IMG/VR virus record: IMGVR_UViG_3300022858_000343
Span: 1-25,116 of that record
DNA: 25,116 nt
Reading direction: 5' to 3' (one strand)
Source: a virus
Shown piece by piece: positions 3,238 to 25,022 of this stretch. How positions within the stretch are numbered: the first letter of the stretch is position 1; the number at the start of each line of letters is the position of its first letter. A program made the translations under genes and the position numbers. The notes below the pieces were generated by a model. The model was not told the DNA's origin, made no database searches, and saw only the letters and a list, made by a program, of their open reading frames with translations.

Positions 3238-3254
3238 AATTTACCCTTTCCCTT

Positions 3255-3695: not shown

Positions 3696-3707
3696 TTAAC
3701 ACCTCCC

Positions 3708-4148: not shown

Positions 4149-4179
4149 TATTCTTTTACTCCTTTGCCACAACGGGCCG

Positions 4180-5256: not shown

Positions 5257-5286
5257 TTTTCAATTAACCTCCATAATGTGTTTGCG

Positions 5287-6084: not shown

Positions 6085-6096
6085 GTCTAATCCTTT

Positions 6097-9870: not shown

Positions 9871-10381
9871 TGCAATCTCCAATGGCATCCATCATATAAG
9901 AACCATCTTCTGCTTGCTCAAACTCAACAATGCTTTCTTCCAGTTTCTCCACTTCCATAATAGAATTTTTAACAATTTCAAATTTATCGTCTGCCAAGAC
10001 CGATTCCACGAACCTTCTCTTTTCTGAGGCTTCGTCCATTAAGTGTGCGTGAAGCAACATAGCTTTTCGCTTAATCCAATTGTCACTTGAATCCAATCCA
10101 TCTTTGATTATTTGGATGATCTGGTCTAAGGCCAAGACAAACTGCACACCCACTTCCTCTCTCAGTCTGTTGCGGTCAACCATGACTGCGTATTTCAGCC
10201 CGATCTCTGCATACCTTATTGCTTCTCCCAAATCTTTTCCAACAAGCTCCGGCAATAACTTCGAGTACACATCGTTGACGGTTAAGCCAGCCATATTGGC
10301 AAGGGTGGTAATTGGCCTTGACAGAATCTGTCTGTCTTGTTGTAAATGATCAACTATCGAAAGTGCCAGCACCTGTCCCAT
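9857..10381 (-). CDS. Probable terminase small subunit
   Basis: A 174-aa mainly helical protein, the first gene of the structural operon, right after its promoter and directly upstream of terL. The sequence 'LTVNDVYSKLLPELVGKDLGEAIRYAEIGLKYAVMVDRNRLREEVG' suggests an N-terminal helical DNA-binding domain followed by oligomerising helices, and the C-terminus is very acidic (EVEKLEESIVEFEQAEDGS), as in many TerS proteins that contact TerL. The helix-turn-helix is not clear enough to call. The gene's role as TerS is inferred from order, size and composition. A GAGGG site precedes the ATG at 10381. Confidence 0.7.
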   Translation of the reverse strand: MGQVLALSIVDHLQQDRQILSRPITTLANMAGLTVNDVYSKLLPELVGKDLGEAIRYAEIGLKYAVMVDRNRLREEVGVQFVLALDQIIQIIKDGLDSSDNWIKRKAMLLHAHLMDEASEKRRFVESVLADDKFEIVKNSIMEVEKLEESIVEFEQAEDGSYMMDAIGDCNGLN

Positions 10382-10993: not shown

Positions 10994-11085
10994 CAAATAC
11001 AAAATAGGAGAGGAGGCGGACAGAACAGGCGGCAAAGATGAAGTCAAACGTAAACGCACCACCAACCAGAATGGAGGTTTTAAAC

Positions 11086-11529
11086 ATGACAGCAAACACA
11101 GAAGCTAAAAGCACATTGGTATTTGAAGGTAAAGAGTACAGTCTTGAGGAAATTCAGGAAATTCAGAAATCAGTTTCTGAAATGACTAAGCTCGTAAAAG
11201 AAGCCAAGAAGGAGGGTATAATTGCTAAAAAGGTCATTGCGAAAGTGGATGATCCGCGCAAGCTACTTCTTGCTGACCTTTTCAGAGGTACGATCGAATC
11301 GAATTTTACTGACATAGTCGGACTCTTCACTGAAACGAAAACCGCCGAAAAGCCTGAAGGTAACATTGGAATCAATATCATGATATCAGGTATTGAATTT
11401 GACGTCCAGTTACTTTCCGGTAGGGCACGTGACGAAAAGGTGAAAATTGCCAAGATGGCAAAAGCTGAAGCAAAAGCTGAAGCTGAACTGGAAAGGGTCA
11501 CCGCACCAGAATCTGAAGACACTGAATAA
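11086..11529 (+). CDS. Hypothetical acidic/lysine-rich protein, 147 aa
   Basis: No family recognised. The start at 11086 (MTANTEAKST) follows GGAGGT at seven bases. An ATG at 11038 in the same frame would add 16 residues with a weaker AGGCGG site and cannot be excluded. The N-terminal half is helical and charged (SLEEIQEIQKSVSEMTKLVKEAKKEGI), the middle has 'DDPRKLLLADLFRGTIESNFTDIVGLF', and the C-terminus is an Ala/Glu/Lys repeat (KMAKAEAKAEAELERV) likely to form a long helix, then an acidic tail. The gene is closed by a rho-independent terminator 21 nt after its stop, so it ends the small operon begun at 10776. A coiled-coil oligomer is likely; function unknown. Confidence 0.75.
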   Translation: MTANTEAKSTLVFEGKEYSLEEIQEIQKSVSEMTKLVKEAKKEGIIAKKVIAKVDDPRKLLLADLFRGTIESNFTDIVGLFTETKTAEKPEGNIGINIMISGIEFDVQLLSGRARDEKVKIAKMAKAEAKAEAELERVTAPESEDTE

Positions 11530-11549
11530 ATTCACACAGTTCTAAAATT

Positions 11550-11581
11550 ATGGGAGTCAGAATATTGACTCCCATTTTTTT
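11550..11581 (+). terminator. Rho-independent terminator
   Basis: A perfect 10-bp stem (ATGGGAGTCA / TGACTCCCAT) with the 6-nt loop GAATAT is followed by seven T. It lies 21 nt after the stop of the 147-aa gene and ends the small rightward operon. Confidence 0.92.
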
Positions 11582-11672
11582 ATGTCAACCTCTTTTTTGT
11601 CACCAAGTATCTTACCACCACAATATTAAAAATTCCTTTTTGTCACTCACTGTGTTTTTAGACCTTTTTTAC

Positions 11673-11801
11673 AACACGTGTTACAAAAAGAGCATCCCTA
11701 CTTTTACCCTGTGATACAACACGCTTTTAGCCTATATTCGACTTTTAGCATATAGCCTCTAACCTATACTCTCAAAGGATTACCTCATATTAGTGTTGTA
11801 T
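11673..11801. repeat. Iterated ACAACAC/GTGTTGT motif
   Basis: The motif occurs as part of the 10-bp palindrome AACACGTGTT (11673-11682), then as ATACAACAC (11714-11722), and in the opposite direction as GTGTTGTAT (11793-11801). The last two are an exact 9-bp inverted repeat. The second and third enclose two CTTTTAGC repeats 18 nt apart (11724, 11742). Such arrangement suggests binding sites for a dimeric protein. Confidence 0.5.
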
Positions 11802-11837
11802 AACAGTTTTTTTACTTCCTTCTATCCTTTCCTATAT

Positions 11838-11908
11838 AAAAAAAAATAAAAAAAAGAAAAAAAAAAAAAAAAAAAAACAAGAAAAAAAAAAAAAAAAAAA
11901 AAAAAAAA
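11838..11908 (+). repeat. 71-nt poly(A) tract
   Basis: All A except T at 11847, G at 11856, C at 11878 and G at 11881; the last uninterrupted run is 27 A (11882-11908) and the one before 21 A. A pyrimidine-rich strand segment precedes it. It could be a DNA-unwinding or curved element, a nucleosome-free type spacer, or an assembly/sequencing problem in a homopolymer. Confidence 0.95.
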
Positions 11909-12048
11909 GGACAATAACACGATATAAGTATCATATATAATATAACAACAATATCAATGAAAAAATAAAGAGTGAGAGGAAAATAAAAAATAGTTTTATA
12001 TATACCCGGCACTCCGAGACGAAAACAAAAAAACTGCGATGAAACACG

Positions 12049-12137
12049 AATCTGAGCTATCCCTTTGTCAGTATAGGTTTGCGAGGTTTTCTTAAAATCA
12101 GAAAATCGCCTTTCAAATCTGAGCTATTCCTTTGTCA
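12049..12137 (+). repeat. 22-nt direct repeat pair
   Basis: Copies at 12049-12070 and 12116-12137 share AATCTGAGCTAT-CCTTTGTCA with one mismatch (C or T). Their starts are 67 nt apart, and a hairpin lies between them. No coding frame crosses them convincingly. Confidence 0.85.
12081..12109 (+). ncRNA. Hairpin between the 22-nt repeats
   Basis: GCGA-GG-TTTTCT pairs with AGAAAA-TCGC around the loop TAAAATC, giving ten pairs with a 2-nt bulge. No U tract follows, so it is not a simple terminator. It could be part of an RNA leader or a DNA structure at an origin; transcription has not been shown, and 'ncRNA' is used only as the nearest type. Confidence 0.4.
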
Positions 12138-12278
12138 TCATGGGCTCCCGCAGTTCGTGTCAGATCACAAGAGATTTTGAGTAAAAAGTGAACTTGTAGT
12201 TTTGTTACGCTCACTGCTATATTTTGTTCAAAACAAGCAACACGCATACCCCAGATCAGAAAAGAAAACCGGAAAACA

Positions 12279-12368
12279 TAATAAAATCAGGTACTTATGC
12301 AAGGTCAGCGGATTAGGAAAAACCGGATAGCAAAAAGAGGCTCGAAAACTTAATAAAATCAGGTACTT
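12279..12368 (+). repeat. 18-nt direct repeat pair upstream of the early promoter
   Basis: TAATAAAATCAGGTACTT occurs exactly at 12279-12296 and 12351-12368, 72 nt apart, each followed by GCAA (directly or after AT). The second copy ends nine bases before the -35 of the putative early promoter, a natural place for an activator site. AAACCGGA also recurs nearby (about 12267 and 12321). Confidence 0.85.
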
Positions 12369-12377
12369 GCAAAGACC

Positions 12378-12406
12378 TTGCTTTTCTTTTCGGTTTAAGA
12401 TAGACT
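12378..12406 (+). promoter_or_regulatory. Probable promoter of the replication operon
   Basis: TTGCTT (12378-12383) and TAGACT (12401-12406) lie 17 nt apart. The -35 is the same as in the promoter at 10776, and the -10 resembles the TAGAGT of the structural promoter. It is the last good candidate before the operon that begins at 12482 and lies just after the 18-nt repeat. Confidence 0.5.
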
Positions 12407-12481
12407 ATCCTCTATATACAGTAGATTTTGAGATTGCCGGTATGCCGCCGGACAGAACACAACATAACACAGGAGGACAAA

Positions 12482-12967
12482 ATGTCAAAAAGTGTGAGAA
12501 ACAAGGAACCGCAAGATGTAACCACGCTGGACATAAAACAACTTGACCTGCGTGATTTACCCAACGGGAAGCATAAGAAAAATGCTTTTCAACAACTTCA
12601 ACGTATCATCAGAGCACCAAACGCGGCAAAGGAAGTTGTGCATGAAATCCTTTCCATTCTGATTCTGGAAGCAGACAGGAAAATAAACCAGCTGGAGAAA
12701 ATCAAGAAACTCCACATAGTACGATTCCGCCAGATGCAATTCAAAGCAGTCGAGGACTTCAAGAACATTGAGAAGGTGAGATTTTTTGAAGCTCATAAGA
12801 CTGAAATCGCGAAAAAACAATTTACATCTGAAATGGTTCATGAGTTGGAAGTGATAAAGAAACGTGAGCTATACAGTTGTTACAAGCTCAGCAAGCTGAA
12901 AGTTTCTGCTATAGACTGCACCACGTGCAACAGAAGACATTCTTGCTGGAGGGGAGGCAAACCATGA
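12482..12967 (+). CDS. Hypothetical early protein with C-terminal Cys cluster, 161 aa
   Basis: Not recognised. The start at 12482 (MSKSVRNKEPQ) follows AGGAGG at good spacing; the longer frame to 12428 lies in the leader. The body is helical and charged, with coiled-coil character (about residues 55-130: EILSILILEADRKINQLEKI). It ends with 'CTTCNRRHSCW', a small Cys cluster that could bind zinc. It is the first gene of the long rightward operon, and its stop overlaps the start of the next (ATGA). A leader motif CGGACAGAACA (12449-12459) recurs before the gene at 11086. It could be an early DNA- or protein-binding factor, without direct evidence. Confidence 0.75.
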   Translation: MSKSVRNKEPQDVTTLDIKQLDLRDLPNGKHKKNAFQQLQRIIRAPNAAKEVVHEILSILILEADRKINQLEKIKKLHIVRFRQMQFKAVEDFKNIEKVRFFEAHKTEIAKKQFTSEMVHELEVIKKRELYSCYKLSKLKVSAIDCTTCNRRHSCWRGGKP

Positions 12968-13107
12968 AAACCAAACAAGAATTTGAACTTCCGGGACTAA
13001 CGAGCAACAACAGAATAAAAGCAATTAAACTTTACACCAAACCAACGAGAGAGAGAACACCGGCAGAACGGCGGGAACTCGAATTGTTGGTTGAAAGGGG
13101 AGGTTGA
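12964..13107 (+). CDS. Small hypothetical protein, 47 aa
   Basis: A 47-aa frame starting MKTKQEFELPGLTSNNRIKA. The ATG overlaps the upstream stop (ATGA) and GGAGG lies at the end of the upstream gene. It is basic in the middle (IKLYTKPTRERTPAERRELELLVERGG) and probably a short helix at the C-terminus. The next gene begins one base after its stop. The coupling supports translation; no function can be proposed. Confidence 0.6.
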   Translation: MKTKQEFELPGLTSNNRIKAIKLYTKPTRERTPAERRELELLVERGG

Positions 13108-13108
13108 A

Positions 13109-13477
13109 ATGCAAGAACAAGAATACGAGAAAAATCATGAAGGACATGTTGAATTGTGGAATTGGTTATCTCACCACCCAAACAAAGGAAAATCACAATG
13201 GCCTGGATGGGAGATAAACGGTGGGATATGGCCAGAAGTTGAAGCGGATTGTTATGCATGTAAAGTCAGCAGGGATCCCGCCTGTAGGGATTGTCCTATA
13301 ATGTGGGGTGAAGAAACCATCAATGGTAAAATGCAGTGTGGACATGATGATTCGCCATATAGCAAGTGGTCTTTGGCCAAATCTCCCAAAACCCACGAGA
13401 AGTATGCCGCCCTTGTTAGGGATGCGGTATGGATACCATATGAAGAATGGCTTGAAATGGTCATGGAGATAGTATAA
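13109..13477 (+). CDS. Cys-rich phage hypothetical protein, 122 aa
   Basis: The start is ATG at 13109 (MQEQEYEKNHEGHVELWNWL), with GGGGAGG upstream. The centre carries 'CYACKVSRDPACRDCPIMWG' and a later 'CGHDDSPYSKW' (five Cys in all, plus His), the layout of a zinc-binding module that I recall from many phage proteins of unknown function (Cys-x2-Cys, Cys-x2-Cys-Pro, then Cys...PYxxW). The C-terminus is helical (THEKYAALVRDAVWIPYEEW). No enzyme motif is seen. It is likely a small zinc-binding regulator or accessory of early infection. Confidence 0.7.
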   Translation: MQEQEYEKNHEGHVELWNWLSHHPNKGKSQWPGWEINGGIWPEVEADCYACKVSRDPACRDCPIMWGEETINGKMQCGHDDSPYSKWSLAKSPKTHEKYAALVRDAVWIPYEEWLEMVMEIV

Positions 13478-13514
13478 CCATGAAGATTGGATTAAATTGT
13501 AAACAGGAGGTAAT

Positions 13515-14126
13515 ATGAGAGATACAAAAGAAGCAACTTGGGGAATTTCAATCGATGATGATTATTGTGAATGGAGGTTTCCCATCCAGATCAGCGGTAA
13601 CGAATGTATTGCAAGTGTATATAAGAAAATAACGAGGCTATTAGGCTCCCCAGAATTTGATGGAATGCTGCGGAAAAACCGTATAAAGCCCACAAAGCTG
13701 GAGGACAAAATGGAAACATACACCGTAAATGGAGTGACGTACAAGCAGTTGGAGGATATCACAGTAAAGGCGTTGATATGGGTGGGGGCGAGGGATATGG
13801 ACGCTGACAAGCTGACTATAGGAGGTTGGCTTGATTCACGTAACTCAAAAATCCGTGGCTTTTCTTATTTAGAAGTTATTCCATTTGATACCGCCCTCGA
13901 CTACGCCTCATCCTGTTCTGAATATCTACTTGTTTTGCTCGTAGATCAGGGGTTCGTGGAGGTGGTGGAGGAAATTGACATAGATTACATATTCAGAACG
14001 CACGGAATTCAGAAACGAACCTCTGGAAATTTGGGAAATAAGTCGGTTTATTTGAATGAAGACTATTCGTGGACACTTGAAAAAGACGACGAGAACATAC
14101 TGTGCTTGGTCCCAAAACAGAAGTAA
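13515..14126 (+). CDS. Hypothetical protein with a possible internal start, 203 aa
   Basis: Not recognised. The start at 13515 has AGGAGGT upstream. The first 65 residues (ending KPTKLEDK) read like a separate small domain. At residue 66 (13710) there is an ATG with the site GGAGGACAAA directly before it, the same 13-mer as at the start of the 12482 gene, so a shorter 138-aa protein (METYTVNGVTYKQL...) may also be made. The second part has helical and beta stretches (EYLLVLLVDQGFVEVVEEIDIDYIF) with no clear motif. It is followed by a 58-aa gene after a 27-nt gap. Function unknown. Confidence 0.7.
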   Translation: MRDTKEATWGISIDDDYCEWRFPIQISGNECIASVYKKITRLLGSPEFDGMLRKNRIKPTKLEDKMETYTVNGVTYKQLEDITVKALIWVGARDMDADKLTIGGWLDSRNSKIRGFSYLEVIPFDTALDYASSCSEYLLVLLVDQGFVEVVEEIDIDYIFRTHGIQKRTSGNLGNKSVYLNEDYSWTLEKDDENILCLVPKQK

Positions 14127-14153
14127 TCTCCAGTTCGCGGAGGTACCAATACC

Positions 14154-14330
14154 ATGAAAATTGAAACCATAAAGAATGAACTCGGCGAGTTTGTAAGTTG
14201 TGTTTGTAACGAGTGTCATGTTGCTCACACGGTAGATTGTGGAAATGCGAAACTTGCATACAGTGTAATCAATAAGTTCAGGGTCAGGCACGAAAGGTGC
14301 GATTCTTTACCAAGAAACAAAACAAAATAG
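14154..14330 (+). CDS. Small Cys-containing protein, 58 aa
   Basis: A 58-aa frame starting MKIETIKNELGEFVSCVCNE. It follows GGAGGT at about nine bases and ends TAG at 14328. It has CVCNECHVAH in the middle and two more Cys (VDCG near 29, ERCD near 49), so a small zinc-binding fold is possible. A basic tail ends with NKTK. It lies between two other unannotated small genes of the same operon. No function is proposed. Confidence 0.6.
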   Translation: MKIETIKNELGEFVSCVCNECHVAHTVDCGNAKLAYSVINKFRVRHERCDSLPRNKTK

Positions 14331-14344
14331 GAAAGGAGGGAAAC

Positions 14345-14518
14345 ATGAGTGATATGCAAGAAGTGAATGACGACCTTATGAAGGGTTTTCAGTACATGAA
14401 CAGAGCTTTCGGAAATTGTGATGATGAATCACTTTCAGAGCTTCAGGGGTTGTATGATGACATGGCAAGTCTGACAACATTTACAAGCGAAGAATTGTAT
14501 TCAGACCCAGAAAAATAA
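14345..14518 (+). CDS. Small acidic hypothetical protein, 57 aa
   Basis: The start is ATG at 14345 (MSDMQEVNDDLMKGFQYM), preceded by AAAGGAGGG; the longer reading to 14297 would run through the previous gene. The product is strongly acidic (DDLMKGF, CDDESLSELQGLYDDMAS, SEELYSDPEK) and helical. Acidic early phage proteins are often inhibitors or DNA mimics, but nothing in the sequence proves that here. Confidence 0.65.
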   Translation: MSDMQEVNDDLMKGFQYMNRAFGNCDDESLSELQGLYDDMASLTTFTSEELYSDPEK

Positions 14519-14535
14519 GAAAGGTGGTGAAAAAC

Positions 14536-14952
14536 GTGATAAGAAACAAAAACTTCATATGTAGCAAAATGTCAATGACAGACGTTACGCGGGCTTTTGA
14601 GTGTGGAAAGAAACCCAAAGAGTATGTCTATGACACGCTGATTGAAGAAGGTTGGATAAGAAAAATAGGTGATAGATTCTTTGCACCTACAGAAAAACTT
14701 TTGAACGAAGCCTTCCTTCCAGTTTGTGTGTCGTTGGATGAAAACCAGAGGCGATATCTTTCCAATAACACCCACTTTTACCGAGTCGATTTACTTAATG
14801 CTTTTGGTGGGGAACAAACATCGGAGCAGATTGTCAAAAAGCTCATCGCGAAAGGATATATTGTGTTGGATGACAGCAAGAGATACCGGAAAAGTGGTGC
14901 TCTTGAAGAATTTTTGGCAGATGGTGATGATACTTTTATGTGGAACGATTAA
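14536..14952 (+). CDS. Hypothetical protein, possible winged-helix-like, 138 aa
   Basis: I choose GTG at 14536 (MIRNKNFICSK) because AAGGTGG is placed about eight bases upstream; GTG codons at 14524 and 14527 lie inside that site. The N-terminal half 'SMTDVTRAFECGKKPKEYVYDTLIEEGWIRKIGDRFFAPTEK' has a helix-helix-helix then beta-hairpin rhythm like a winged helix, and 'SEQIVKKLIAKGYIVLDDSKRYRKSG' repeats that rhythm. A DNA-binding role is possible but weak. Its site and spacing to the next gene support a real CDS. Confidence 0.6.
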   Translation: MIRNKNFICSKMSMTDVTRAFECGKKPKEYVYDTLIEEGWIRKIGDRFFAPTEKLLNEAFLPVCVSLDENQRRYLSNNTHFYRVDLLNAFGGEQTSEQIVKKLIAKGYIVLDDSKRYRKSGALEEFLADGDDTFMWND

Positions 14953-14964
14953 CTGGAGGTGTTT

Positions 14965-15462
14965 ATGAATATTTACAAGGTGACATATAAAGATAGTGGC
15001 GGTGGTTATATCTGGGATGAACTGGTTACATTAACGAAGTGGAACAGTGGATATGGCGACCAAAGAATGAAGGAGTCTGGTGCTACAAGCGCAGTTTTTC
15101 AAATTTTCGCGCAGGAACAGGAAGTTCGTGGAGCGTTCACACCCTTCAGAACAGAACAAACAACCGCAGAACCCTTGGCCTGGAAAACTTCTTTTTCTGG
15201 GTCTGAACGGAATCTTGGTGTTGCGGTGGAGCCAATTTCTCGCGGTGAAATGTGTATTCGTGATGCAAGTGGATTGATTAAATCAGCATCAAATCTCAAC
15301 CCGCCACACCACAATAAAGAGTGGAGTGCTTTTGAAAAAAGTAGATTGGCGGAAAAACTGAAGCACTTTCTTTTTTACAATGCCAAAGTACACGGGCGGA
15401 CAGAAGGTGCGATTGCAAACAAGACAGAACAGTATCTCAAAGACAGAAGGAGGGGCAAATAA
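14965..15462 (+). CDS. Hypothetical protein with SANT/Myb-like C-terminus, 165 aa
   Basis: The start is ATG at 14965 (MNIYKVTYKDSGGGYIW) after GGAGGT; a GTG two codons upstream falls inside the site. The C-terminal 50 residues read 'EWSAFEKSRLAEKLKHFLFY' then 'GRTEGAIANKTEQYLKDRRR'. The W-x-x-x-E start and the GRT-x-x-A-I-x-x-K third helix resemble the SANT/Myb DNA-binding unit. The N-terminal part is beta-rich and unassigned. The stop overlaps the next start (TAATG). It may bind DNA as an early regulator; the N-terminal role is unknown. Confidence 0.6.
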   Translation: MNIYKVTYKDSGGGYIWDELVTLTKWNSGYGDQRMKESGATSAVFQIFAQEQEVRGAFTPFRTEQTTAEPLAWKTSFSGSERNLGVAVEPISRGEMCIRDASGLIKSASNLNPPHHNKEWSAFEKSRLAEKLKHFLFYNAKVHGRTEGAIANKTEQYLKDRRRGK

Positions 15463-15719
15463 TGGCTGATGAAATTAAGGGAACCACTATCACACAAGAA
15501 GATATTGACAGATACAAGAAGATGCAGGCCATGGTGGCAGAATACAGAAAAACCCTTGCACCCAAGAAGGAAGCCATTGTTGCCTCAATCCAGAAGTTAC
15601 CAATGAAAGATATTGTAGAAATATTGGCCTTCGAGGGCAAGACTGGAATGAACTATGATTTTGAGTGGGAGGAAAAGCCGTACACCATGAGAATTTCTCT
15701 CAGGAAAACGGCTGGGTAG
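15462..15719 (+). CDS. Hypothetical protein, 85 aa
   Basis: MADEIKGTTITQEDIDRYKK begins at the ATG overlapping the previous stop, with AGGAGGGG upstream. It is a helical protein with a charged repeat (MQAMVAEYRKTLAPKKEAIVASIQKL) followed by 'EGKTGMNYDFEWEEKPYTMRISLRKTAG', which may be a beta-hairpin. Not recognised. It is the last of the small genes before the helicase leader. Confidence 0.65.
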   Translation: MADEIKGTTITQEDIDRYKKMQAMVAEYRKTLAPKKEAIVASIQKLPMKDIVEILAFEGKTGMNYDFEWEEKPYTMRISLRKTAG

Positions 15720-15755
15720 GTAGCATAACATCACGTGGTAGGAAGCATATTGGAA

Positions 15756-15803
15756 GGTGTGGTCGGAATATGGAGGGTGCTACCCCCTTCACCGACCAGC
15801 ACC
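15756..15803 (+). promoter_or_regulatory. Leader hairpin before the SNF2 helicase
   Basis: GGTG-TGGTCGG (15756-15766) pairs with CCGACCA-c-GCACC (15792-15803), eleven pairs with a one-base bulge. The 25-nt loop holds GGAGGGTG, a copy of the true ribosome site GGAGGGTG (15813-15820) before the ATG at 15823, and then CCCCCTTC, which could pair with either copy. This suggests a translational switch for the helicase; it is not experimentally known. Confidence 0.55.
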
Positions 15804-15822
15804 GACAACTCTGGAGGGTGTT

Positions 15823-17541
15823 ATGGAAACTGAAAACAAAATACGAGCAAACATATTTAACTATAACGGAGAAGACAACTCTTTACGTTGCGAATCGTAT
15901 GAGGGCGGATATATTGGCTTGAAGGGTGGGGTATGGAAAAAACCAATCTATATTTACCCAATGAGCACCGCTAATATAGATATTCTTTTTAAATTATACA
16001 AGCATGATTCAGAAGATAGGTGGGGTGTAAAGAATTTATGGCAACCATCTCTTGTATATGAACTTCAACGGCTTTATAAAGATAAGTTCGACATGGCTGG
16101 GAACCTACGGTTTCTTCACTCACTAACACTTGATTCTGTTAAGAGGTATCCAACGCCATTTAAATTAGCAGGGAATGACCTTGAGCCATTCGCAAACCAG
16201 ATGGTATCACAATATTGGCAGAAGTATGTGAAAGAGCATGCACTACTCTGGGAAATGGGAACTGGGAAGACACGAAGTATAGTTGAAGCGTTTGAGATAA
16301 AAAAGAAGGATGAAAAGGTAAAAAACTGTCTTGTTTTGTGTCCCTTATCAATGGTTGATAAATGGATAGTCGAGATTGAGAAGTGGAGTGGTTGCAAAGA
16401 TGCAGTTGGACTCTGTGGTTCAAGGGCCGACAAGGTTGAGGCATTATCGTTGGGTTTCACCTGGGTTGTTGCTACTTTTGAAACAGCATACAGATTAGAA
16501 AAAGAATTACTAAGCATTGTAAACACAAAATGGATGGTTGTTCTTGATGAATTTACTAAAATAAAAAATCCTTATGCAAAAAGGTCGAAAACGTGTGTCA
16601 AACTGGGATTAAAAACAAAGCACAAGAATATTCTAAGCGGCACACCAATCACGCAGAACGCATATGATATATTTACACCATTTATGTTTCTTGATAATGG
16701 AGAAACATTCGGATTAAACTATGAAGATTTTTTGCGCAAGTACTTTTGGACAAATGGGTATAAGAAAATAGCAATGTCCGGTTCACTTCAAAGAATATCA
16801 GACCTGATCTTTGATAAATCAACACGATTCAGGAAGAAGGAGTGTATTGACATTCCTGATAAAATATATGATACAATTCCTATAGAATTACCGCCGGAAA
16901 ACAAACAGAAGTATGATGAAATGGTACAATATGCAATCGCTCAGCTTATGAGTGGTGAAATTGTAACCGCACCTATTATACTGGTACAGTTGCTACGACT
17001 CAGCCAGATAACATCCGGTTTTGCAGTAGATGAAGTTGGACAGACCATAGATTTTGTCAAGCAACCAAAGCTGGATGCATTTCAGGACATACTTGATGGT
17101 TCCAATGGAACAAAGATTATTGCGTGGTCAAGATTTAAACATGATATAGACAGAATAGCTGAACGGTGTAATGAAAGTGGGGTAAGGGCTGTTAAATTAT
17201 ATGGAGATACAAAACAGGAAGAACGAACAGCCAATATCAAAGCGTTTCAAGAAGAACCAGACTGCAAGGTGATAGTTGGTACAGCCGGAACAGGTGGACA
17301 CGGTATTGATTTGGTTGCTGGGAATATTGTGGTTTATTACTCGAACTCATATTCTTTGGAGCAGAGGTTGCAAAGTGAGGACAGGACACACAGAGCAGGG
17401 CAAAGAAACCAAGTGCAGTATATAGACCTACTGTGTAAGAAAACTGTGGACATTGCAATATATAAGATACTACGTGAGAAGAAAAGCATAGCAGACGTGG
17501 TAACAAGAGACAATGTATTTGGTATGCTAACAAATAATTAG
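15823..17541 (+). CDS. SNF2-family (SF2) DNA helicase/translocase
   Basis: A 572-aa superfamily-2 ATPase. The start at 15823 (METENKIRAN) has GGAGGG; the upstream frame lies within the leader hairpin. The Walker A is EMGTGKT (about 144-150), motif II reads DEFT (242-245) rather than DEAH, motif III is SGTP (272-275), and motif VI is QSEDRTHRAGQ (about 517-527), the Snf2 signature. 'VVLDEFTKIKNP' matches the DExx-x-IKN form of phage Snf2-like enzymes. An N-terminal region of about 110 residues is unassigned. It probably moves along duplex DNA to remodel replication or recombination intermediates. It neighbours a radical SAM and a nuclease gene. Confidence 0.92.
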   Translation: METENKIRANIFNYNGEDNSLRCESYEGGYIGLKGGVWKKPIYIYPMSTANIDILFKLYKHDSEDRWGVKNLWQPSLVYELQRLYKDKFDMAGNLRFLHSLTLDSVKRYPTPFKLAGNDLEPFANQMVSQYWQKYVKEHALLWEMGTGKTRSIVEAFEIKKKDEKVKNCLVLCPLSMVDKWIVEIEKWSGCKDAVGLCGSRADKVEALSLGFTWVVATFETAYRLEKELLSIVNTKWMVVLDEFTKIKNPYAKRSKTCVKLGLKTKHKNILSGTPITQNAYDIFTPFMFLDNGETFGLNYEDFLRKYFWTNGYKKIAMSGSLQRISDLIFDKSTRFRKKECIDIPDKIYDTIPIELPPENKQKYDEMVQYAIAQLMSGEIVTAPIILVQLLRLSQITSGFAVDEVGQTIDFVKQPKLDAFQDILDGSNGTKIIAWSRFKHDIDRIAERCNESGVRAVKLYGDTKQEERTANIKAFQEEPDCKVIVGTAGTGGHGIDLVAGNIVVYYSNSYSLEQRLQSEDRTHRAGQRNQVQYIDLLCKKTVDIAIYKILREKKSIADVVTRDNVFGMLTNN

Positions 17542-17557
17542 AAAGGGGATGTGTGTT

Positions 17558-17803
17558 ATGAAGCTAAAACAGAAATCTCTAACACAAAAAGCTAAAGATG
17601 CTGGTCTTGTTATGCCGACTGGTGGAAACAGACGACTTTACCGCAAGGCGTTGAAGGCCAAGATAAAAGAATTAAAGAAACAGAAAACTGTTGCCGTCAA
17701 ATCCCAAGTGAATTGGTTTGAAAAACTTATGGACGAGGAGCTAAGTGTAGTGTTACCGCTTGATGGTACAACAGTGGAGGCTATTTTAAATGGCAACGAT
17801 TAA
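17558..17803 (+). CDS. Small basic hypothetical protein, 81 aa
   Basis: The start is ATG at 17558 (MKLKQKSLTQKAKDAGLVMP); an ATG at 17549 abuts GGGG without spacing. The N-terminal two-thirds is strongly basic (RRLYRKALKAKIKELKKQKTVAVKSQ), likely helical and able to bind nucleic acid; the rest is acidic (FEKLMDEELSVVLPLDGTTVEAIL). It overlaps the radical SAM start by 14 nt. No function is proposed beyond possible DNA/RNA binding. Confidence 0.7.
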   Translation: MKLKQKSLTQKAKDAGLVMPTGGNRRLYRKALKAKIKELKKQKTVAVKSQVNWFEKLMDEELSVVLPLDGTTVEAILNGND

Positions 17804-18683
17804 CCTGCTCACTGATGCACCAAACTATAACTTGGCTCTGATGAAACTAAGTGCATGGCACAAAGCACAAGGAGATACAGTTTTTTTAAATGAACCATTA
17901 CAACCTGCGGAGAAAACCTATGCAAGCATACTTTTTGATTGGAACAAAGACAAGTTTTTCGCTGATGTTTATGGTGGGCCACAATTTCCTACCGTTAATT
18001 TACCACCAGAAGTGGAACGTATGCGACCTGACTATGAATTATATAACATCGACCACTCTCTTGGATATACATTCAGACCCTGTTATCGTCATTGCGATTT
18101 TTGCTTAGTCAAAACATTTAAGTTCCCAGATAAAAAGCACCACTCAATTTGGGAATTTCACGAAGAAAGGTTTGATAAGATATGTTTGATGAACAACAAC
18201 ACATTTATAGACCCACTATGGAAATCAACATTCCAAGAAATATGGGATGCGGATTTAAAAGTAATGGAACATGGTATGGATATAAGGTTGTTGGATAATG
18301 AGAAAATCGAGGCGATAAAAAATACCAAGTTTAGTGGCAAACTACACTTTGCGTGGGACAGAATGAGAGATAAAAAAAATATATTAACTGGTCTTAGGTT
18401 GCTCAAAGAATATAAAATACACAGCAGGATGTATGTTTTGTGTGGATATGATTCTACCATGGAAGAAGACCTTGAGCGGTGTCAGACCATAGTAGATTAC
18501 AATCAAGTTCCATATGTAATGCCATTCAATCTAACCAAAACGGTTAGGTTATTTAAAGGATTTATGAATGCACCAGCTAATTGGTGGCACGGCAAAGAAA
18601 ACATAACCTTAGAGTGGGAAAAGTTTCAACGTGGAAAAAAATATGTTAAGATGGATGAAGGACAAACAGATTTGTTTGAATGA
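17790..18683 (+). CDS. Radical SAM protein
   Basis: A 297-aa enzyme with C98-YRH-C102-DF-C105, the CxxxCxxC motif that binds the [4Fe-4S] cluster used to cleave S-adenosylmethionine. The first 90 residues (INLLTDAPNYNLALMKLSAWHKAQGDTV) resemble the cobalamin-binding-like N-terminal domain of B12-dependent radical SAM enzymes, though no DxHxxG cobalamin motif is seen. Downstream 'GMDIRLLDNEKIEAIKNTKFSGKLHFAWD' and 'RMYVLCGYDSTMEEDLERCQTI' fit the TIM-barrel half. GGAGG precedes the ATG at 17790. It lies among DNA-replication genes, so the substrate might be nucleic acid or a nucleotide, but that is open. Confidence 0.88.
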   Translation: MATINLLTDAPNYNLALMKLSAWHKAQGDTVFLNEPLQPAEKTYASILFDWNKDKFFADVYGGPQFPTVNLPPEVERMRPDYELYNIDHSLGYTFRPCYRHCDFCLVKTFKFPDKKHHSIWEFHEERFDKICLMNNNTFIDPLWKSTFQEIWDADLKVMEHGMDIRLLDNEKIEAIKNTKFSGKLHFAWDRMRDKKNILTGLRLLKEYKIHSRMYVLCGYDSTMEEDLERCQTIVDYNQVPYVMPFNLTKTVRLFKGFMNAPANWWHGKENITLEWEKFQRGKKYVKMDEGQTDLFE

Positions 18684-18694
18684 AAGGACTAACA

Positions 18695-19678
18695 ATGGAA
18701 AAATTATATGTTCATCAGCACGATGTAGCCGACTTTACACAATGCAGATTCAGATTCTACCTATCTTTTGTGTTGGGCCTTGCACCCATAATAAACAAAA
18801 GTTGGCTTGACGTGGGTTCTGCGTTCTCCAAAGCATTGGAGGTTGTTTATCTCACCGGTGAATTAGCAAACGGAATGGCAACAATCTATTCTATGCAAGA
18901 AGATTTGAAACTGTTGGCCAGATCGCAAGACAGAATGGATGATATTGATAATGATTGTTGCATGACGGTAGCTATGTTGAGTGCGTACCACAAGAAATAT
19001 ATTGAGAACTCTACCGATGAAATAAAGCCAGAGTTTCGTATCGAAACACCAATAAAGAACCATCCAAATTTTGTATATGTGTGTAGGCTTGACGGATTAA
19101 AGAATAACAATATTATTATTGAAGACAAAACAACAGCAAAAATCGAGAAGGATTTAATCGAACACCTTCCAACGAACTTCCAAGTCAATTCATATTGGAA
19201 CGCTCTCTTGGTCAACGGATATAAGATAGGAAAAATAAACTATAGGTACACACAAAAGACACAGATACGCAGAAAGAAAACTGAAACAGTTGAAGCATTT
19301 CAGTTGAGGATAATGGATAAATATCACCAAGAAGCAGATACACTTCTACACGAAGAAGAACTGTTGCTCGACACCTCAGTGTTAAAATCATTTAACGAAG
19401 ACCTCGACTGGTATATATCAGAAATAGAACGAGCGTACAACTACAATAGGTGGCCAAAGAATGGTACAATGTGTCGAACTGGATTCAATACAAGTTGTAA
19501 GTTCTTGAAGTATTGTTACAACCCAACGGAAGAAACTATCAATACATACTTTAAACCAGAGAAAACACCACACAAATACGAACAAGAAAAACGAGAATAC
19601 ATGCGCGATTTGTTTATGGAAATGATAAGAGCACAGGTAAACTTCAAGAAAGGAAAACGAATCTATGAAACCACTTGA
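18695..19678 (+). CDS. Cas4/RecB-like PD-(D/E)XK nuclease
   Basis: A 327-aa nuclease. I choose ATG at 18695 (MEKLYVHQHDVADF) with AAAGGA upstream; an ATG at 18680 overlaps the previous stop and cannot be excluded. The catalytic signature is D133 (CRLDGL), E143-x-K145 (IIEDK) and the QxxxY motif Q163-Y167, matching RecB/Cas4-type motifs. Cys17 and Cys260, 268 and 274 (MCRTGFNTSCKFLKYC) could hold an Fe-S cluster as in Cas4 and AddB. It should act as an exonuclease or single-strand processing enzyme with the Sak4-like protein downstream. No CRISPR locus is present, so a role in recombination is favoured. Confidence 0.88.
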   Translation: MEKLYVHQHDVADFTQCRFRFYLSFVLGLAPIINKSWLDVGSAFSKALEVVYLTGELANGMATIYSMQEDLKLLARSQDRMDDIDNDCCMTVAMLSAYHKKYIENSTDEIKPEFRIETPIKNHPNFVYVCRLDGLKNNNIIIEDKTTAKIEKDLIEHLPTNFQVNSYWNALLVNGYKIGKINYRYTQKTQIRRKKTETVEAFQLRIMDKYHQEADTLLHEEELLLDTSVLKSFNEDLDWYISEIERAYNYNRWPKNGTMCRTGFNTSCKFLKYCYNPTEETINTYFKPEKTPHKYEQEKREYMRDLFMEMIRAQVNFKKGKRIYETT

Positions 19679-20015
19679 CGAAGAACTTGTTGTTGAAGAA
19701 ATCTTTGATAAAATTAAGAAAGTTTTTCCAGATGTAACTACACCAGATATTGGCAATGTTCATTTTATTGAAAGTTTCAGGTTTGATGGACTCGCTAACA
19801 TCTACCACATAAAACTAAATCTGTCAATGTTTGAAGACATAAGTATACAAAATAAAAGATTGGTGCACGTTGTATTACATGAACTCGTACATTATAATGG
19901 ATTCATGCATCATAAAGAATCATTTTATAATAAACTTGAAATACTGGAAAGGGGGTGGAGTGAAGCATACGAGGAACTAACAACGAACAACAAAACAAGT
20001 GTGGAAGGAGAATGA
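19665..20015 (+). CDS. SprT/YgjP-like HExxH metalloprotein
   Basis: A 116-aa protein with HELVH at residues 72-76 and then His82-His83 in 'YNGFMHHKESF'. This HExxH-x5-H-H-x3-F arrangement resembles SprT/YgjP-type zinc metalloproteases and formally also the HExxHxxGxxH consensus. The N-terminus is helical (DEELVVEEIFDKIKKVF). The ATG at 19665 overlaps the nuclease stop by 14 nt, and AAAGGA lies about ten bases upstream. It is short for a full protease, so it may be a minimal fold. SprT proteins act on DNA-protein crosslinks, which would fit replication, but that is inference. Confidence 0.75.
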   Translation: MKPLDEELVVEEIFDKIKKVFPDVTTPDIGNVHFIESFRFDGLANIYHIKLNLSMFEDISIQNKRLVHVVLHELVHYNGFMHHKESFYNKLEILERGWSEAYEELTTNNKTSVEGE

Positions 20016-20016
20016 A

Positions 20017-20748
20017 ATGGCACTACCGACAGAAAAAACAAAACCGAAGTTGGGATTATGGCAACATCCCATACTGTTGTACGGCCCTCCCAAAATAGGC
20101 AAGTCAACTCTTTTGGCGGAGATACCAGACAACTTGTTCTTTAACACTGGTGGAGGATTGGATGCCCTTGAGGTTTTTCAAGTTCCGATACCAACATGGG
20201 AAGCGTTTGAGGAAAGAGCAACAGAGTTCCTTGCAGGTGGACATTCTTACAAGGTTCTGACAATAGATACCATTGATAGATTGCACAAGCTGGCAATTAC
20301 AAAGGTAATCACTGACAGAAACATATCCCACCCACAAGATTTGGAATTTGGGAAAGGATATGATCTTGTAAAGGACTTGATGATGCGTCCACTTATGAAA
20401 TTAGCGTTGTCAAAATATGGATTTATCTTGGTATCTCATACAAAGGAAGTAGAAATTACATCACGGATAAGGAAATATACCAAGACAATGCCGACTTTAC
20501 AAGACCACGTGTGGCAGTTGGTTGATTCCATAACTGGTATCATTATGTTGTATGATACCGAAACAGATAAAGAAAATAATGTTAAACGGGTACTTCGTGT
20601 TAAGCCTAACGAAAGCTATATCGCTGGAGACAGAACCGGTAGGTTGGCAAAGCACGGAGATATTTTATTGGATGATGGTAAAAATAACTGGGCTAAGATA
20701 GAAAACATATTCACTGGCCCAGCACCACAACAGGGGCTTAAGGTATGA
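20017..20748 (+). CDS. Sak4-like RecA-fold ATPase (phage recombinase)
   Basis: A 243-aa single-domain ATPase. The start is ATG at 20017 (MALPTEKTKPKL) one base after the upstream stop, with AAGGAG. Walker A is GPPKIGKST (residues 23-31), Walker B 'VLTIDTID' (Asp 84), and 'FILVSHTKEVE' is a sensor-like strand. The set matches the AAA_24 / Sak4 family, single-strand annealing or RecA-like proteins found next to SSB-like genes in phages. It should promote annealing recombination on SSB-coated DNA. Nuclease upstream and SSB-like protein downstream support that. Confidence 0.88.
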   Translation: MALPTEKTKPKLGLWQHPILLYGPPKIGKSTLLAEIPDNLFFNTGGGLDALEVFQVPIPTWEAFEERATEFLAGGHSYKVLTIDTIDRLHKLAITKVITDRNISHPQDLEFGKGYDLVKDLMMRPLMKLALSKYGFILVSHTKEVEITSRIRKYTKTMPTLQDHVWQLVDSITGIIMLYDTETDKENNVKRVLRVKPNESYIAGDRTGRLAKHGDILLDDGKNNWAKIENIFTGPAPQQGLKV

Positions 20749-21026
20749 GTGGAGAAAAGATAGAACCAAAAAAAGAAACGCGGGTTATTTGGGTTCATGG
20801 CATGGCGATAATCGGAAAGTCCACCAAGGATGAGGGGGGATTGGAAGATACGTTGTTCTTTCAACAAACAGAGGGGGGAATGAGGTTCGCCGTTGTGCCG
20901 GGAAACCCAAAGAACGTAGTGTTTTATGATATAGGAATGTCCTATATCGTGACATCAGAAAAGTTGATAACGGCATACAACGAAGCAATTGTTAAATTAA
21001 AAGGAAAGGAGAAAAAAATATTATGA
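20745..21026 (+). CDS. Small P-loop-like protein, possible Sak4 fragment
   Basis: A 93-aa protein coupled to both neighbours (ATGA on each side). Residues 14-27 read VIWVHGMAIIGKST, a formal Walker A (GMAIIGKST), followed by 'LEDTLFFQQTEGG'. The spacing and words match the start of the Sak4-like protein just upstream (PILLYGPPKIGKST ... PDNLFFNTGGG). There is no Walker B, so it cannot be a complete ATPase. It could be a truncated duplicate, a small partner, or a P-loop-like coincidence. The rest (AVVPGNPKNVVFYDIGMSYIV) is beta-rich. Confidence 0.65.
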   Translation: MSGEKIEPKKETRVIWVHGMAIIGKSTKDEGGLEDTLFFQQTEGGMRFAVVPGNPKNVVFYDIGMSYIVTSEKLITAYNEAIVKLKGKEKKIL

Positions 21027-21502
21027 GCAACGGCGTTGACGAATACATGGATTCATTGGACAAGGAACATACACCATCAACTGTTCCAGACCAAGGATTT
21101 GCAACGTATCCAGATTCAAAGTATCAAGTAAGACTGGATGCAATACGTATGCAGAAATCGAAAGCAAAAGAAAAAGTTCAGTGTGTTATGGAGTTTGAGA
21201 TTCTAACTGGTTCTTTGGCATTCAGAACAATTTACAAATACTCCAACATGGAAACAGTACAGAATCTCGATTACCTGACAAGAGACCTTCGGACACTGGG
21301 TATTCCAGTTGATTTCAAATGGAGCACAGTAGAGACGTTGTTTGCGCCACTACTTGATAGCTATTTTGAAATTGAACTCAAGACAAAAACAGACGCGGGT
21401 GGTAGGGAGTTCCAAAACTGTTTTATCTTGAAGAAGCTGGAGAGAGACAGTGTTCTTCTTGGTGGAGCAATAAAAGAACCAGAGGATGACATACCGTTCT
21501 AA
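21023..21502 (+). CDS. SSB/DUF669-like single-strand DNA-binding protein
   Basis: A 159-aa protein with an OB-like beta-strand core (SKYQVRLDAIRMQKSKAKEKV; FRTIYKYSN; YFEIELKTKTDAGGREFQNCFILKKL) and an acidic tip ending EPEDDIPF, the form used by single-strand binding proteins to recruit partners. It follows the Sak4-like ATPase, the usual place of DUF669-family proteins. Its ATG overlaps the previous stop. It should coat ssDNA during replication and annealing. Confidence 0.8.
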   Translation: MSNGVDEYMDSLDKEHTPSTVPDQGFATYPDSKYQVRLDAIRMQKSKAKEKVQCVMEFEILTGSLAFRTIYKYSNMETVQNLDYLTRDLRTLGIPVDFKWSTVETLFAPLLDSYFEIELKTKTDAGGREFQNCFILKKLERDSVLLGGAIKEPEDDIPF

Positions 21503-21508
21503 CGCTTC

Positions 21509-21575
21509 TGGATGGGACAACGCCCTGGTGCGCTCCTCCTCCGGGTGTACACGGGAAGGCACGTTGTCCCATCCA
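21509..21575. repeat. Perfect 14-bp inverted repeat before the primase-helicase
   Basis: TGGATGGGACAACG (21509-21522) and CGTTGTCCCATCCA (21562-21575) are exact complements with a 39-nt GC-rich loop, between the SSB-like stop and the primase-helicase ribosome site. CC (523-524) with GG (558-559) may extend the stem around a bulge, and the loop contains the palindrome GTGTACAC. No U tract follows, so it is not an ordinary terminator. It could be an RNA structure or a DNA site. Confidence 0.9.
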
Positions 21576-21607
21576 AACCTTTTACCACAGATGATCTGGA
21601 GATAAAC

Positions 21608-24373
21608 ATGAAGTGGAAAAGTTTTTATAAACAGTATTTTGATAATATAAAAGAAGGCGTTAGCAAGCAAAACGTAGTCTGCCCATTCCACGAAGATAAA
21701 GACCCAAGCATGTCACTTGATTTTGAGACGGGGTTGTTCTATTGTCATGGATGTGGAAAGGGTGGCGATGTCTTTTCTTTCCATATGCTTTGGCACCAGT
21801 GTTCATTTACTGTTGCAAAGAATGCGATTATGGGAAACGAACAGGTAGATGTCTTGTCTCAAACAGAAGTTGATGTTGCACACCTTAAATTGGTTGCATC
21901 TGGTGAACTACAAAAGATGCTTCTAATAAAACGTGGTTGGACACTGGACATTATAAAGCAATTAAAATTAGGTTGGTCTAACGAAAGAGTTTTCATTCCG
22001 ATATACAATAAAGATGGAAAACTTTGTAACATAAGGAAGTATGATGCACTTCACAAATCAAAGAATAAATTCAAGGGTGTCAAGGGTTACAACACTCTAA
22101 GGATATGGCCAGAGGAAGCGTTGGATTTAGAGCAGGTTATTTTCTTCGCTGGAGAACCGGACACAATACTTGCAAGGCAGATGGGACTGAACGGTGTAAC
22201 CTTTTGTGGAGGTGAAGGCTCATTTAAAGCAAGTCTTTTACCATTACTTGCGGGAAAGAAGGTTTATATAGTATATGATGTTGATACTGTTGGACAAAAT
22301 GCGGGAAGACAACTTGCTGAAAAAGCAACAGAACACGCGACCGAGTGTTATCTGTGTCACCTTCCAGCTTCTGTCCTTCCAGCTAACGGAGATTTTACAG
22401 ACCTGTTCCATTATTGTGTTGATAATGACAAACAATTTACAGAAGAATGGGGTAAGGTTGTTTCCGCTGCTGAAAAGATAGAGATAAAGGAAAAAGAAAA
22501 AGAAATAGAACACAAAAATGTTGATTTCTATGCCGCTGTACAAGAGAAGTATTTCAACAAGAACATTGCAATGGAAGCAATTGCAATAGGGAAAAACTTT
22601 TCACCATTTTTTGCACCCAAGCACCTAAAGATAACTTGTTCTTTCGCTAAGGGCGATTCATGCAAGGCTTGCAAAATGTTTGCAACTGGCGGTGAGATGG
22701 ACGTTGAAGTAGATGATGAGAATGCACTCGACCTTATAAAGTGTACCTCTGGTGAGCAACGTGGCAAAATAAAAAGTCTGGTTGGAATTGTAAACTGCAA
22801 CCAATTTGAATTGGAAGTTAAGACACAAACGATAGAGGAAGTTTTCATATCACCAGTGATTGATTCGGAAAGGATTGATAGACAGTTTGTTGTCAGAAAA
22901 ATATACGTAAAGGGACACAATCTACAGCTTAATAAAACATACAGGTTCTCTGGAAAAACAATAGCAGACGCCAAGACACAAGAGGCAACGCATTTATTTA
23001 ACGAAGCGGTTCCAGAACTAACAGACTTGGATAAGTTTAAATTAAGCGAAGAAGAAATAGGGTTGTTAAAGATTTTTAATCCAAAGGAAGTTGGGGTCGA
23101 TGGAATAGAAAAACAAGTAGCTTCTATTTGCCGTGACATTTCCTATAACATACCAGAAATTATTGTTGGACGAGAGAACTTAATGTTCTCATACGACCTT
23201 ACGTTTCACAGTGTACTACGGTTTAAGTTTCTGGGTTCGAGGGTTGAAAAGGGGTGGGTAGAAATGCTTGCTTTAGGTGATACAAGAACTGGAAAGACTA
23301 AGGTTGCTGTAAAAATGTGTAGGCACTATCGTGTTGGTGAATACATTACCCTTGAGTCGGCAACACTTCCCGGTCTTGTTGGTGGTATATCTCAGGTAGG
23401 CAGGGAGGTTGCGTTTGCATGGGGAGTGTTACCTATTAACGATGGACGACTGGTAGTTCTTGATGAAGTGAACGGACTCGATGCCAGAGACATTGGGAAC
23501 TTGTCTTCTATTCGTGACAACGGTATAGCAGAAAGAACTGTTGTTGGTTCTACCAGAAAAACATCTGCAAGAGTTAGGCTCATATGGATTTCTAATCCAC
23601 GTTCTGCCAATCTTAGAATAGCACACTATTCATCTGGTATCGAATCAATAAAAGAATTGATGGGAAGGCCAGAAGACATAGCAAGACTTGACCTTGCCAT
23701 TATAGTTGCAAAGGAAGATGTTGCAGTAGAAAAGATAAACCAACTGGGACACAGGAAGCCAGAGCATAAATACACATCAGACTTGTGCAATAAATGTTTA
23801 ATGTGGGCATGGTCACGAAAAGAAGATGATGTATTTTTTACACCAGAAGCAGAAAGGCTGATACTTAGAGAAGCAATATCTTTAAGTGAAAAATATTCTG
23901 ATAGTATTCCGTTAGTACAAGGTAGTGTTCAGAGAATTAAGCTGGCGAAGTTGGCAACAGCTTTAGCATGTAGATTGTTTTCGACAAACGATGGATTGAA
24001 GGTTACGGTAAAAGAAGAACACGTACAATATATAGTTAAGTTTTTGCAAGAAACATACGACTCGGCATACTTTGGATACAACGATTATAGTTTCAGCAAG
24101 AAAGAAGAAAGCACTTTAACTGGAACAGATGAAATAAGACAAGCAATAGAAAATTTGGGAGATTCATCAATGTTTGTAAGGAAGATGTTGAACTCAAACC
24201 AGATATTGTTTGACGATCTCGTTGACTTCACTGGTTGTAATCGTGAGTTTGTAAAGGAACTTCGTGCATTGATGGTGTCAAACAATTGTCTTGAAAGAAA
24301 GAAATCTTTTTATTATAAAACAAAAGAATTTACCAAGATGTTAAAAGAAATGCAAGGGAGAAATAAACAATGA
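21608..24373 (+). CDS. CHC2-TOPRIM primase fused to an MCM-like helicase
   Basis: A 921-aa replication protein. The start at 21608 (MKWKSFYKQYF) has GGAGA upstream. Domains in order: CHC2 zinc finger (C25-PFH28, C46-HGC49); primase core with TOPRIM (AGEPD, E183; YDVDTVG, D224/D226); a Cys-rich segment (C344, C352, C355) and OB-like region (about 425-465); an AAA+ module with Walker A GDTRTGKT (557-564), a PGLVGGI segment (588-594), Walker B VVLDE (616-620), sensor N663, and 'GRPEDIARLDLAII' (686-699) like the MCM arginine-finger region; then a C-terminal winged-helix-like end. The AAA+ part matches MCM, not DnaB. It would prime and unwind in one polypeptide. Confidence 0.85.
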   Translation: MKWKSFYKQYFDNIKEGVSKQNVVCPFHEDKDPSMSLDFETGLFYCHGCGKGGDVFSFHMLWHQCSFTVAKNAIMGNEQVDVLSQTEVDVAHLKLVASGELQKMLLIKRGWTLDIIKQLKLGWSNERVFIPIYNKDGKLCNIRKYDALHKSKNKFKGVKGYNTLRIWPEEALDLEQVIFFAGEPDTILARQMGLNGVTFCGGEGSFKASLLPLLAGKKVYIVYDVDTVGQNAGRQLAEKATEHATECYLCHLPASVLPANGDFTDLFHYCVDNDKQFTEEWGKVVSAAEKIEIKEKEKEIEHKNVDFYAAVQEKYFNKNIAMEAIAIGKNFSPFFAPKHLKITCSFAKGDSCKACKMFATGGEMDVEVDDENALDLIKCTSGEQRGKIKSLVGIVNCNQFELEVKTQTIEEVFISPVIDSERIDRQFVVRKIYVKGHNLQLNKTYRFSGKTIADAKTQEATHLFNEAVPELTDLDKFKLSEEEIGLLKIFNPKEVGVDGIEKQVASICRDISYNIPEIIVGRENLMFSYDLTFHSVLRFKFLGSRVEKGWVEMLALGDTRTGKTKVAVKMCRHYRVGEYITLESATLPGLVGGISQVGREVAFAWGVLPINDGRLVVLDEVNGLDARDIGNLSSIRDNGIAERTVVGSTRKTSARVRLIWISNPRSANLRIAHYSSGIESIKELMGRPEDIARLDLAIIVAKEDVAVEKINQLGHRKPEHKYTSDLCNKCLMWAWSRKEDDVFFTPEAERLILREAISLSEKYSDSIPLVQGSVQRIKLAKLATALACRLFSTNDGLKVTVKEEHVQYIVKFLQETYDSAYFGYNDYSFSKKEESTLTGTDEIRQAIENLGDSSMFVRKMLNSNQILFDDLVDFTGCNREFVKELRALMVSNNCLERKKSFYYKTKEFTKMLKEMQGRNKQ

Positions 24374-24639
24374 AAAGAAGAAAAGAGCCAGTGTTTTGGA
24401 AAGATGCTGAGTGTCCACATTGTGGAAACTTTGATTATGGTGTAGAATTTTTCTACACTCCCGATCTTTTGACACATTTAGTACAAAGAAAGTGTCATCA
24501 GTGTGGTAAAAAGTTTGATGTAACCGCAGACATAAAAACAAAATTAAGAATAAATATGTGTTTAAGGTTAGCAAAAGAGAACGATGATTTACTTGCTAAG
24601 ATTATGGTAAACAATAAAATATTGGGAGTGCACGAATGA
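24370..24639 (+). CDS. Zinc-ribbon protein, 89 aa
   Basis: The ATG overlaps the primase-helicase stop (ATGA). 'ECPHCGNFDYG' (C15, C18) and 'KCHQCGKKFDV' (C42, C45) are two CxxC pairs about 23 residues apart, a zinc-ribbon layout. The rest is helical (KTKLRINMCLRLAKENDDLLAKIMVNN). It ends overlapping the next gene. A role as a small nucleic-acid-binding partner of the primase is possible from position only. Confidence 0.75.
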   Translation: MKRRKEPVFWKDAECPHCGNFDYGVEFFYTPDLLTHLVQRKCHQCGKKFDVTADIKTKLRINMCLRLAKENDDLLAKIMVNNKILGVHE

Positions 24640-25022
24640 TTGAAATGACACACAGAGAACTATTCAATGCGCTAAAGATTGACGGTGAGATTTGGCACGA
24701 GTTTGTTTTAGACCCAAAGATAGATATGAGTTATGCCGTCTTAATACGATGTGAATGTGGAGCAATGATGAAATATGGTGATTGGTATTTAAACAAAGCT
24801 CACCATTTTATTGATTTTGAAACCAACGAAGGCATGATGTGGATACTAAATCATGCAAAGAAATATGATTGGTTTAAAAGATTTGTGTCCAGCTATATTG
24901 GAATGTACCACAATCGGAGGATATATATTGATACCGAACAGCTATCTCCTGTCAATGTAATGGAAAAAATAAAAGAGTTTTTTGAATTAGAGGGAAGTTC
25001 AAACACTAACATTAACAGATAA
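24636..25022 (+). CDS. Hypothetical protein, 128 aa
   Basis: Not recognised. Coupled to the previous gene by ATGA (MIEMTHRELFNALKIDGEIW). A single CEC (IRCECGAMMKYGDWYL) lies in the middle, then 'KAHHFIDFETNEGMMWILNHAKKYDWFKRF', 'SYIGMYHNRRIYI' and a helical acidic end (MEKIKEFFELEGSS). It is composed much like a soluble enzyme or adaptor of early infection, without a motif I can name. Confidence 0.65.
   Translation: MIEMTHRELFNALKIDGEIWHEFVLDPKIDMSYAVLIRCECGAMMKYGDWYLNKAHHFIDFETNEGMMWILNHAKKYDWFKRFVSSYIGMYHNRRIYIDTEQLSPVNVMEKIKEFFELEGSSNTNINR

Follow-up and report, generated by a model that had tools for sequence, protein, structure and literature searches.

A phage protein joining a DnaG-type TOPRIM primase to an MCM-type helicase, and the widespread family to which it belongs

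On the lagging strand, the well-studied TOPRIM primases partner RecA-fold helicases of 5'-3' polarity. In proteins of the T7 gp4 type, a zinc finger and a TOPRIM primase lie N-terminal to a ring helicase within one chain, the motor being of the RecA fold (DnaB/SF4, 5'-3'). In the bacterial realm, MCM had been described solely in phages before it was found in plasmids (PMC5862659), and its fusion to an archaeo-eukaryotic primase (AEP) is already published (PMC5862659, PMC4538821). For BcMCM, which is encoded by Bacillus cereus prophages (McGeoch & Bell 2005, cited by PMC4538821 and PMC5862659), 3'-5' helicase, ATPase, and primase/polymerase activities have been measured (PMC4538821). Furthermore, SCCmec elements carry the MCM-like Cch as well as Cch2, likewise 3'-5' AAA+ helicases of mobile elements, but neither has a TOPRIM primase attached (PMC7581432). 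While the AEP-MCM form is thus known, we found no paper describing a TOPRIM-MCM protein in the literature searched; since this coverage does not extend to the BcMCM paper or to a survey from 2016 of the replication proteins of dsDNA viruses (doi 10.1093/nar/gkw322), an earlier mention is possible.

The window, i.e., the whole stretch of 25,116 nucleotides that was analyzed, is a fragment of a tailed phage with two divergent blocks: terminase, portal, and major head protein are encoded on the minus strand (48-10381), and replication genes on the plus strand (11038-25022). Within the latter, a single ORF of 921 codons is open from an ATG at 21608 to the stop at 24373. An alternative in-frame ATG is found upstream, at 21512; however, 21608 is the likelier start, since near relatives (e.g., L008) align from residue 1 and a strong hairpin occupies positions 21509-21575. 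From N- to C-terminus, the product comprises a CHC2 zinc finger, a TOPRIM primase core, an OB-like domain with 4 cysteines, an AAA+ core, and a winged helix (Table 1). The initial annotation had read this ORF as a DnaG-type primase joined to an MCM-like helicase, and all motifs that it named are present at the residues it gave (C25/H28/C46/C49, E183, D224/D226, GDTRTGKT at 557-564, PGLVGG, Walker B, and EDIARLD). The profile searches and structure prediction that it had suggested as checks returned DnaG primases for residues 1-290 and MCM for residues 308-921, so that its reading is supported with respect to fold and residues, while the function is predicted.

Table 1. Features of the primase-helicase gene and of the neighboring replication genes, with positions in the window.
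Feature	Position	Strand	Evidence
TOPRIM primase-MCM helicase fusion, 921 aa	21608..24373	+	ORF, Pfam, profiles, AlphaFold, Foldseek
CHC2 zinc finger (DnaG type), residues 1-80; C25, H28, C46, C49	21608..21847	+	PF01807 3.4e-14; 1d0q; conservation
DnaG-type RNA polymerase core with TOPRIM, residues 85-290; E183, D185, D224, D226, D262	21860..22477	+	profile matches 2au3, 1dd9, 5guj; invariant residues
Beta-rich OB-like domain, C344/C352/C355/C397, residues 319-470; equivalent of MCM N-terminal tier	22562..23017	+	AlphaFold secondary structure; Foldseek; Cys 65-66/68
MCM-type AAA+ core, residues 481-735; helix-2 insert hairpin (592-605), pre-sensor-1 hairpin (640-653)	23048..23812	+	profiles, AlphaFold, Foldseek
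Walker A GDTRTGKT, residues 557-564	23276..23299	+	G557, D558, R560, G562, K563 68/68
Walker B strand and acidic pair D619-E620, residues 615-620	23450..23467	+	E620 68/68, D619 67/68
Arginine finger R693 (EDIARLD)	23684..23686	+	68/68; role inferred from MCM alignment
Sensor-2-like arginine R776	23933..23935	+	66/68; role inferred from lid position
C-terminal winged-helix-like domain, residues 853-920	24164..24367	+	AlphaFold secondary structure
SSB-like protein (DUF669), directly upstream of primase-helicase	21023..21502	+	phrog_378 3.4e-5
Sak4-like RecA-fold annealing protein	19999..20748	+	phrog_124 1.4e-34
PD-(D/E)XK (Cas4/RecB-like) nuclease	18680..19678	+	PF12705 3.5e-5
SNF2-type SF2 helicase	15757..17541	+	phrog_62 7.5e-111, PF00176 1.6e-22

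Two alignments were used for the family, one of full-length homologs from named phages (A1) and one of 68 proteins (A2), which consists of the window protein and relatives mostly from viral contigs and underlies all residue counts given here as x/68. The features that mark the DnaG/TOPRIM class, a CHC2 zinc finger and the catalytic acidic residues (E; DxD), are both present, and the N-terminal part of the family profiles matches DnaG structures at 4.6e-29 (A1) and 6.4e-26 (A2), which bears out the proposed bacterial-type primase. E183, D185, D224, D226, and D262 are each invariant (68/68), and the zinc-finger ligands are retained at C25 in 64, H28 in 62, C46 in 65, and C49 in 39 of the 68 proteins. 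N663 in the helicase half is likewise found in 68/68, and with the motif residues of Table 1 included, the conservation of the catalytic residues of both halves is far beyond chance. The protein is predicted to synthesize RNA primers.

We assign a probability of about 80% to the reading that this protein is the phage's own replicative primase-helicase, with a TOPRIM primase and an MCM-type helicase in one chain. This assignment is inferred from its replication neighbors, from the absence of DnaB_C from all 17 related records, from its constancy while the polymerase varies, and from the activities measured for BcMCM. The order of SNF2 helicase, nuclease, Sak4, and SSB is common in outline to BSTP12, Youna2, and Krampusvirus. 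A polymerase is not in view within the 25 kb fragment; among complete relatives, some have a family A polymerase and others a DnaE-like one, so that the primase-helicase rather than the polymerase is the constant part. In the proposed mechanism, 6 chains would assemble into an MCM ring moving 3'-5' along the leading-strand template. Since, by the established polarity of MCM enzymes, their N-terminal face is turned toward the fork, the primases would be expected on this OB/zinc face, where their zinc fingers could bind the excluded lagging strand and RNA primers would be laid as the duplex opens, to be extended by the phage polymerase.

The lack of a phage DnaB in the relatives would also leave room for that of the host, and the strongest alternative, although improbable, is that the protein serves initiation only, as an origin-melting helicase with a primase, while host DnaB drives the fork. 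Origin DNA could be contacted by the predicted C-terminal winged helix, and SCCmec elements are known to encode a 3'-5' helicase specific to their origin (PMC7581432). However, a primase carried in the same chain, with its active site and zinc finger intact, is suggestive of primers being laid again and again at the fork, and the relatives bring their own polymerase, both of which argue for the replicative primase-helicase.

The assignment of the helicase half to MCM required evidence beyond a single-sequence Pfam match, since the window protein scores 18.2 bits against a cut-off of 23.3. Pfam applied to the window protein alone gave the CHC2 zinc finger (3.4e-14), Toprim_2 (7e-4), and MCM below its cut-off (0.0014), and phmmer with the single sequence against solved structures gave the DnaG zinc finger and core, followed weakly by archaeal MCMs. 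The cut-off is exceeded by the TOPRIM homologs L003 (27.7 bits) and L004 (27.3) and by the AEP relative L007 (51). Nevertheless, we dropped the Pfam match as stand-alone proof: the model matches all 14 control genomes, including bacteria lacking MCM, and thus fails to separate MCM from helix-2-insert relatives, so that the claim is carried by fold and profile results. This behavior of the model, together with the sub-threshold score and a weakly listed AAA_5, would suit a helicase half from another AAA+ group that merely resembles MCM (D5/SF3, DUF927/Cch-like, or Mg-chelatase/ComM-like). We regard this as very unlikely, given that the AAA+ part of the family profiles matches MCM among solved structures at 8.5e-10 (A1) and 5.3e-10 (A2), with no D5 or chelatase AAA+ chain among the 60 solved-structure matches listed, that T7 gp4 is matched via its primase part only, and that D5, DnaB, and chelatase families are absent from the Pfam results. 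In particular, Pfam found no DnaB_C match in the window protein, i.e., no sign of a RecA-fold motor.

AlphaFold modeled the full protein at pLDDT 90 and residues 308-921 at pLDDT 91 and pTM 0.86, and for both models the best 50 PDB fold matches are all MCM. For residues 308-921, these reach E-values down to 5e-23 and TM up to 0.63 at 11-16% identity, and the Foldseek alignments span 540-670 columns, including the N-terminal tier. The modeled strand pairs correspond to the helix-2 insert and pre-sensor-1 hairpins, and the OB-like domain carries a putative zinc-binding cluster of 4 cysteines (65-66/68), in line with the initial annotation, which likened the Cys-rich, OB-like middle to an MCM N-terminal part. 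Based on sequence profiles and models, the results therefore support MCM rather than DnaB or D5/SF3. With archaeal and eukaryotic MCMs, the protein shares the OB/zinc N-tier, helix-2 insert, pre-sensor-1 hairpin, arginine finger, and C-terminal winged helix, whereas cellular MCMs have no fused primase and, as seen from the above identities, are distant from it. The pre-sensor-1 lysine is found in 58/68 homologs; the window protein has Val645, with another lysine nearby at 651, and this one oddity counts against the assignment. In the secondary structure of the AlphaFold model, no bundle of helices matching the MCM N-terminal helical (A) domain was evident between the primase and the OB domain.

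The fusion is a widespread phage family and not a single oddity. Full-length homologs are encoded by Krampusvirus, Wollypog, the Bacillus phages BSTP12 and BSP7, and Weizmannia phage Youna2, with the same architecture and 29-32% identity over 88-96% of the protein, and tblastn against phages gave 47 records at ≥80% coverage, mostly Krampusvirus but also Bacillus and Weizmannia phages. The records of the named phages label these homologs simply "DNA primase" or "primase/helicase" ("DNA primase small subunit" in the case of Youna2 and BSTP5) and leave their MCM nature unstated. A plasmid-like record of Paenibacillus larvae also carries the fusion. While a single-sequence query of viral contigs gave no match, relatives were found once an alignment was used as query; based on 2 short motifs, at least 266 IMG/VR contigs encode relatives, and the analysis used the best 80 of them. 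The nearest are L008-L011, with 62, 62, 62, and 49% identity, respectively. A one-motif search of a bacterial genome collection yielded 2 loci, which argues for a chiefly phage family. An assembly error, the initial annotation's own caveat, can be dismissed, and so can an accidental union of separate primase and helicase genes, as the same one-ORF fusion is conserved in about 80 independent contigs as well as in finished phage genomes.

In addition, the same OB-AAA+-winged-helix part is found behind an AEP primase in B. velezensis plasmid p3 and Bacillus phage vB_BboS-125, in line with the earlier remark that MCM may be joined to such a primase in some bacterial elements. Over this part, the window protein and the AEP form L007 share 31% identity, and its helicase half matches that of PHROG 18685 ("unknown function"), which is the AEP-MCM family, at 4.7e-78. 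L007 and L090-L110 are probably orthologs of BcMCM, which resembles the window protein in its OB/zinc-AAA+-winged-helix chassis, N-terminal primase, and phage or plasmid replication context. However, the primases have unrelated folds: the archaeo-eukaryotic domain (PF01896) of BcMCM was not found by Pfam in the window protein, which has TOPRIM instead. Scoring the ORFs of 175 records gave about 145 TOPRIM and 26 AEP forms, with overlapping loci and the window itself counted more than once. In a tree of the shared MCM part (67 rows), a further check suggested at the outset, the AEP forms fall together with part of the TOPRIM forms into a single group of 18 rows with high support (100/99), and at least 2 primase changes were obtained in 200/200 bootstraps. 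However, a tree constrained to unite all AEP forms was not rejected by an AU test (p 0.54) and even scored slightly better. We therefore dropped the claim of 2 or more independent exchanges; at least one primase exchange, in either direction, is needed, with a higher number not proven. The AAA protein of haloarchaeal virus HJTV-4 (L174, 1215-3317) matches the AAA+ core weakly and is a possible relative from an archaeal virus.

Taken together, we lean toward regarding these proteins as a large, unrecognized class of phage primosome, in which MCM serves as replicative helicase in bacteria and a TOPRIM primase on the fork side has been swapped for AEP in some lineages. If so, primase type and helicase type, and hence the strand tracked by the ring, can be recombined: a TOPRIM primase tied to a ring expected to move 3'-5' would have the opposite geometry to its RecA-fold pairings, nearer to that of Pol alpha-primase on the eukaryotic CMG. 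With TOPRIM and AEP versions on the same chassis, small one-chain systems would be at hand for testing polarity constraints on primase-helicase pairing. Furthermore, the annotation would be corrected for a family that hundreds of phages carry, among them Bacillus and Microbacterium phages that are easy to grow.

Several further observations were made around the gene. The hairpin at 21509-21575, just upstream of the primase start, contains a perfect 14-bp inverted repeat, TGGATGGGACAACG (-43 kcal/mol, z -3.75). Its sequence was not present upstream of the relatives inspected and was seen in one other viral contig only, for which reason we do not claim it as an origin or regulator. In L009, the gap upstream of the fusion holds a tRNA-Gln (7908-7979). 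The replication block of the window also encodes a radical SAM protein (17790-18683; phrog_9298, 2.8e-43), and queuosine-type genes (QueC/QueD/FolE) adjoin the same fusion in related Bacillus phages, which together make DNA base modification possible. A small protein in this block (19665-20015) has weak SprT/WLM-like metallopeptidase matches. Finally, the polymerases of some relatives are divided: the family A polymerase is split into 2 ORFs that small ORFs or a gap separate (L003, 17494-20439; L004, 16919-20188), perhaps due to an intron or homing insertion, and the DnaE-like polymerase is annotated as 2 ORFs (L002, 16835-20186; L172, 12487-16363), with an HNH endonuclease lying between them in Wollypog.
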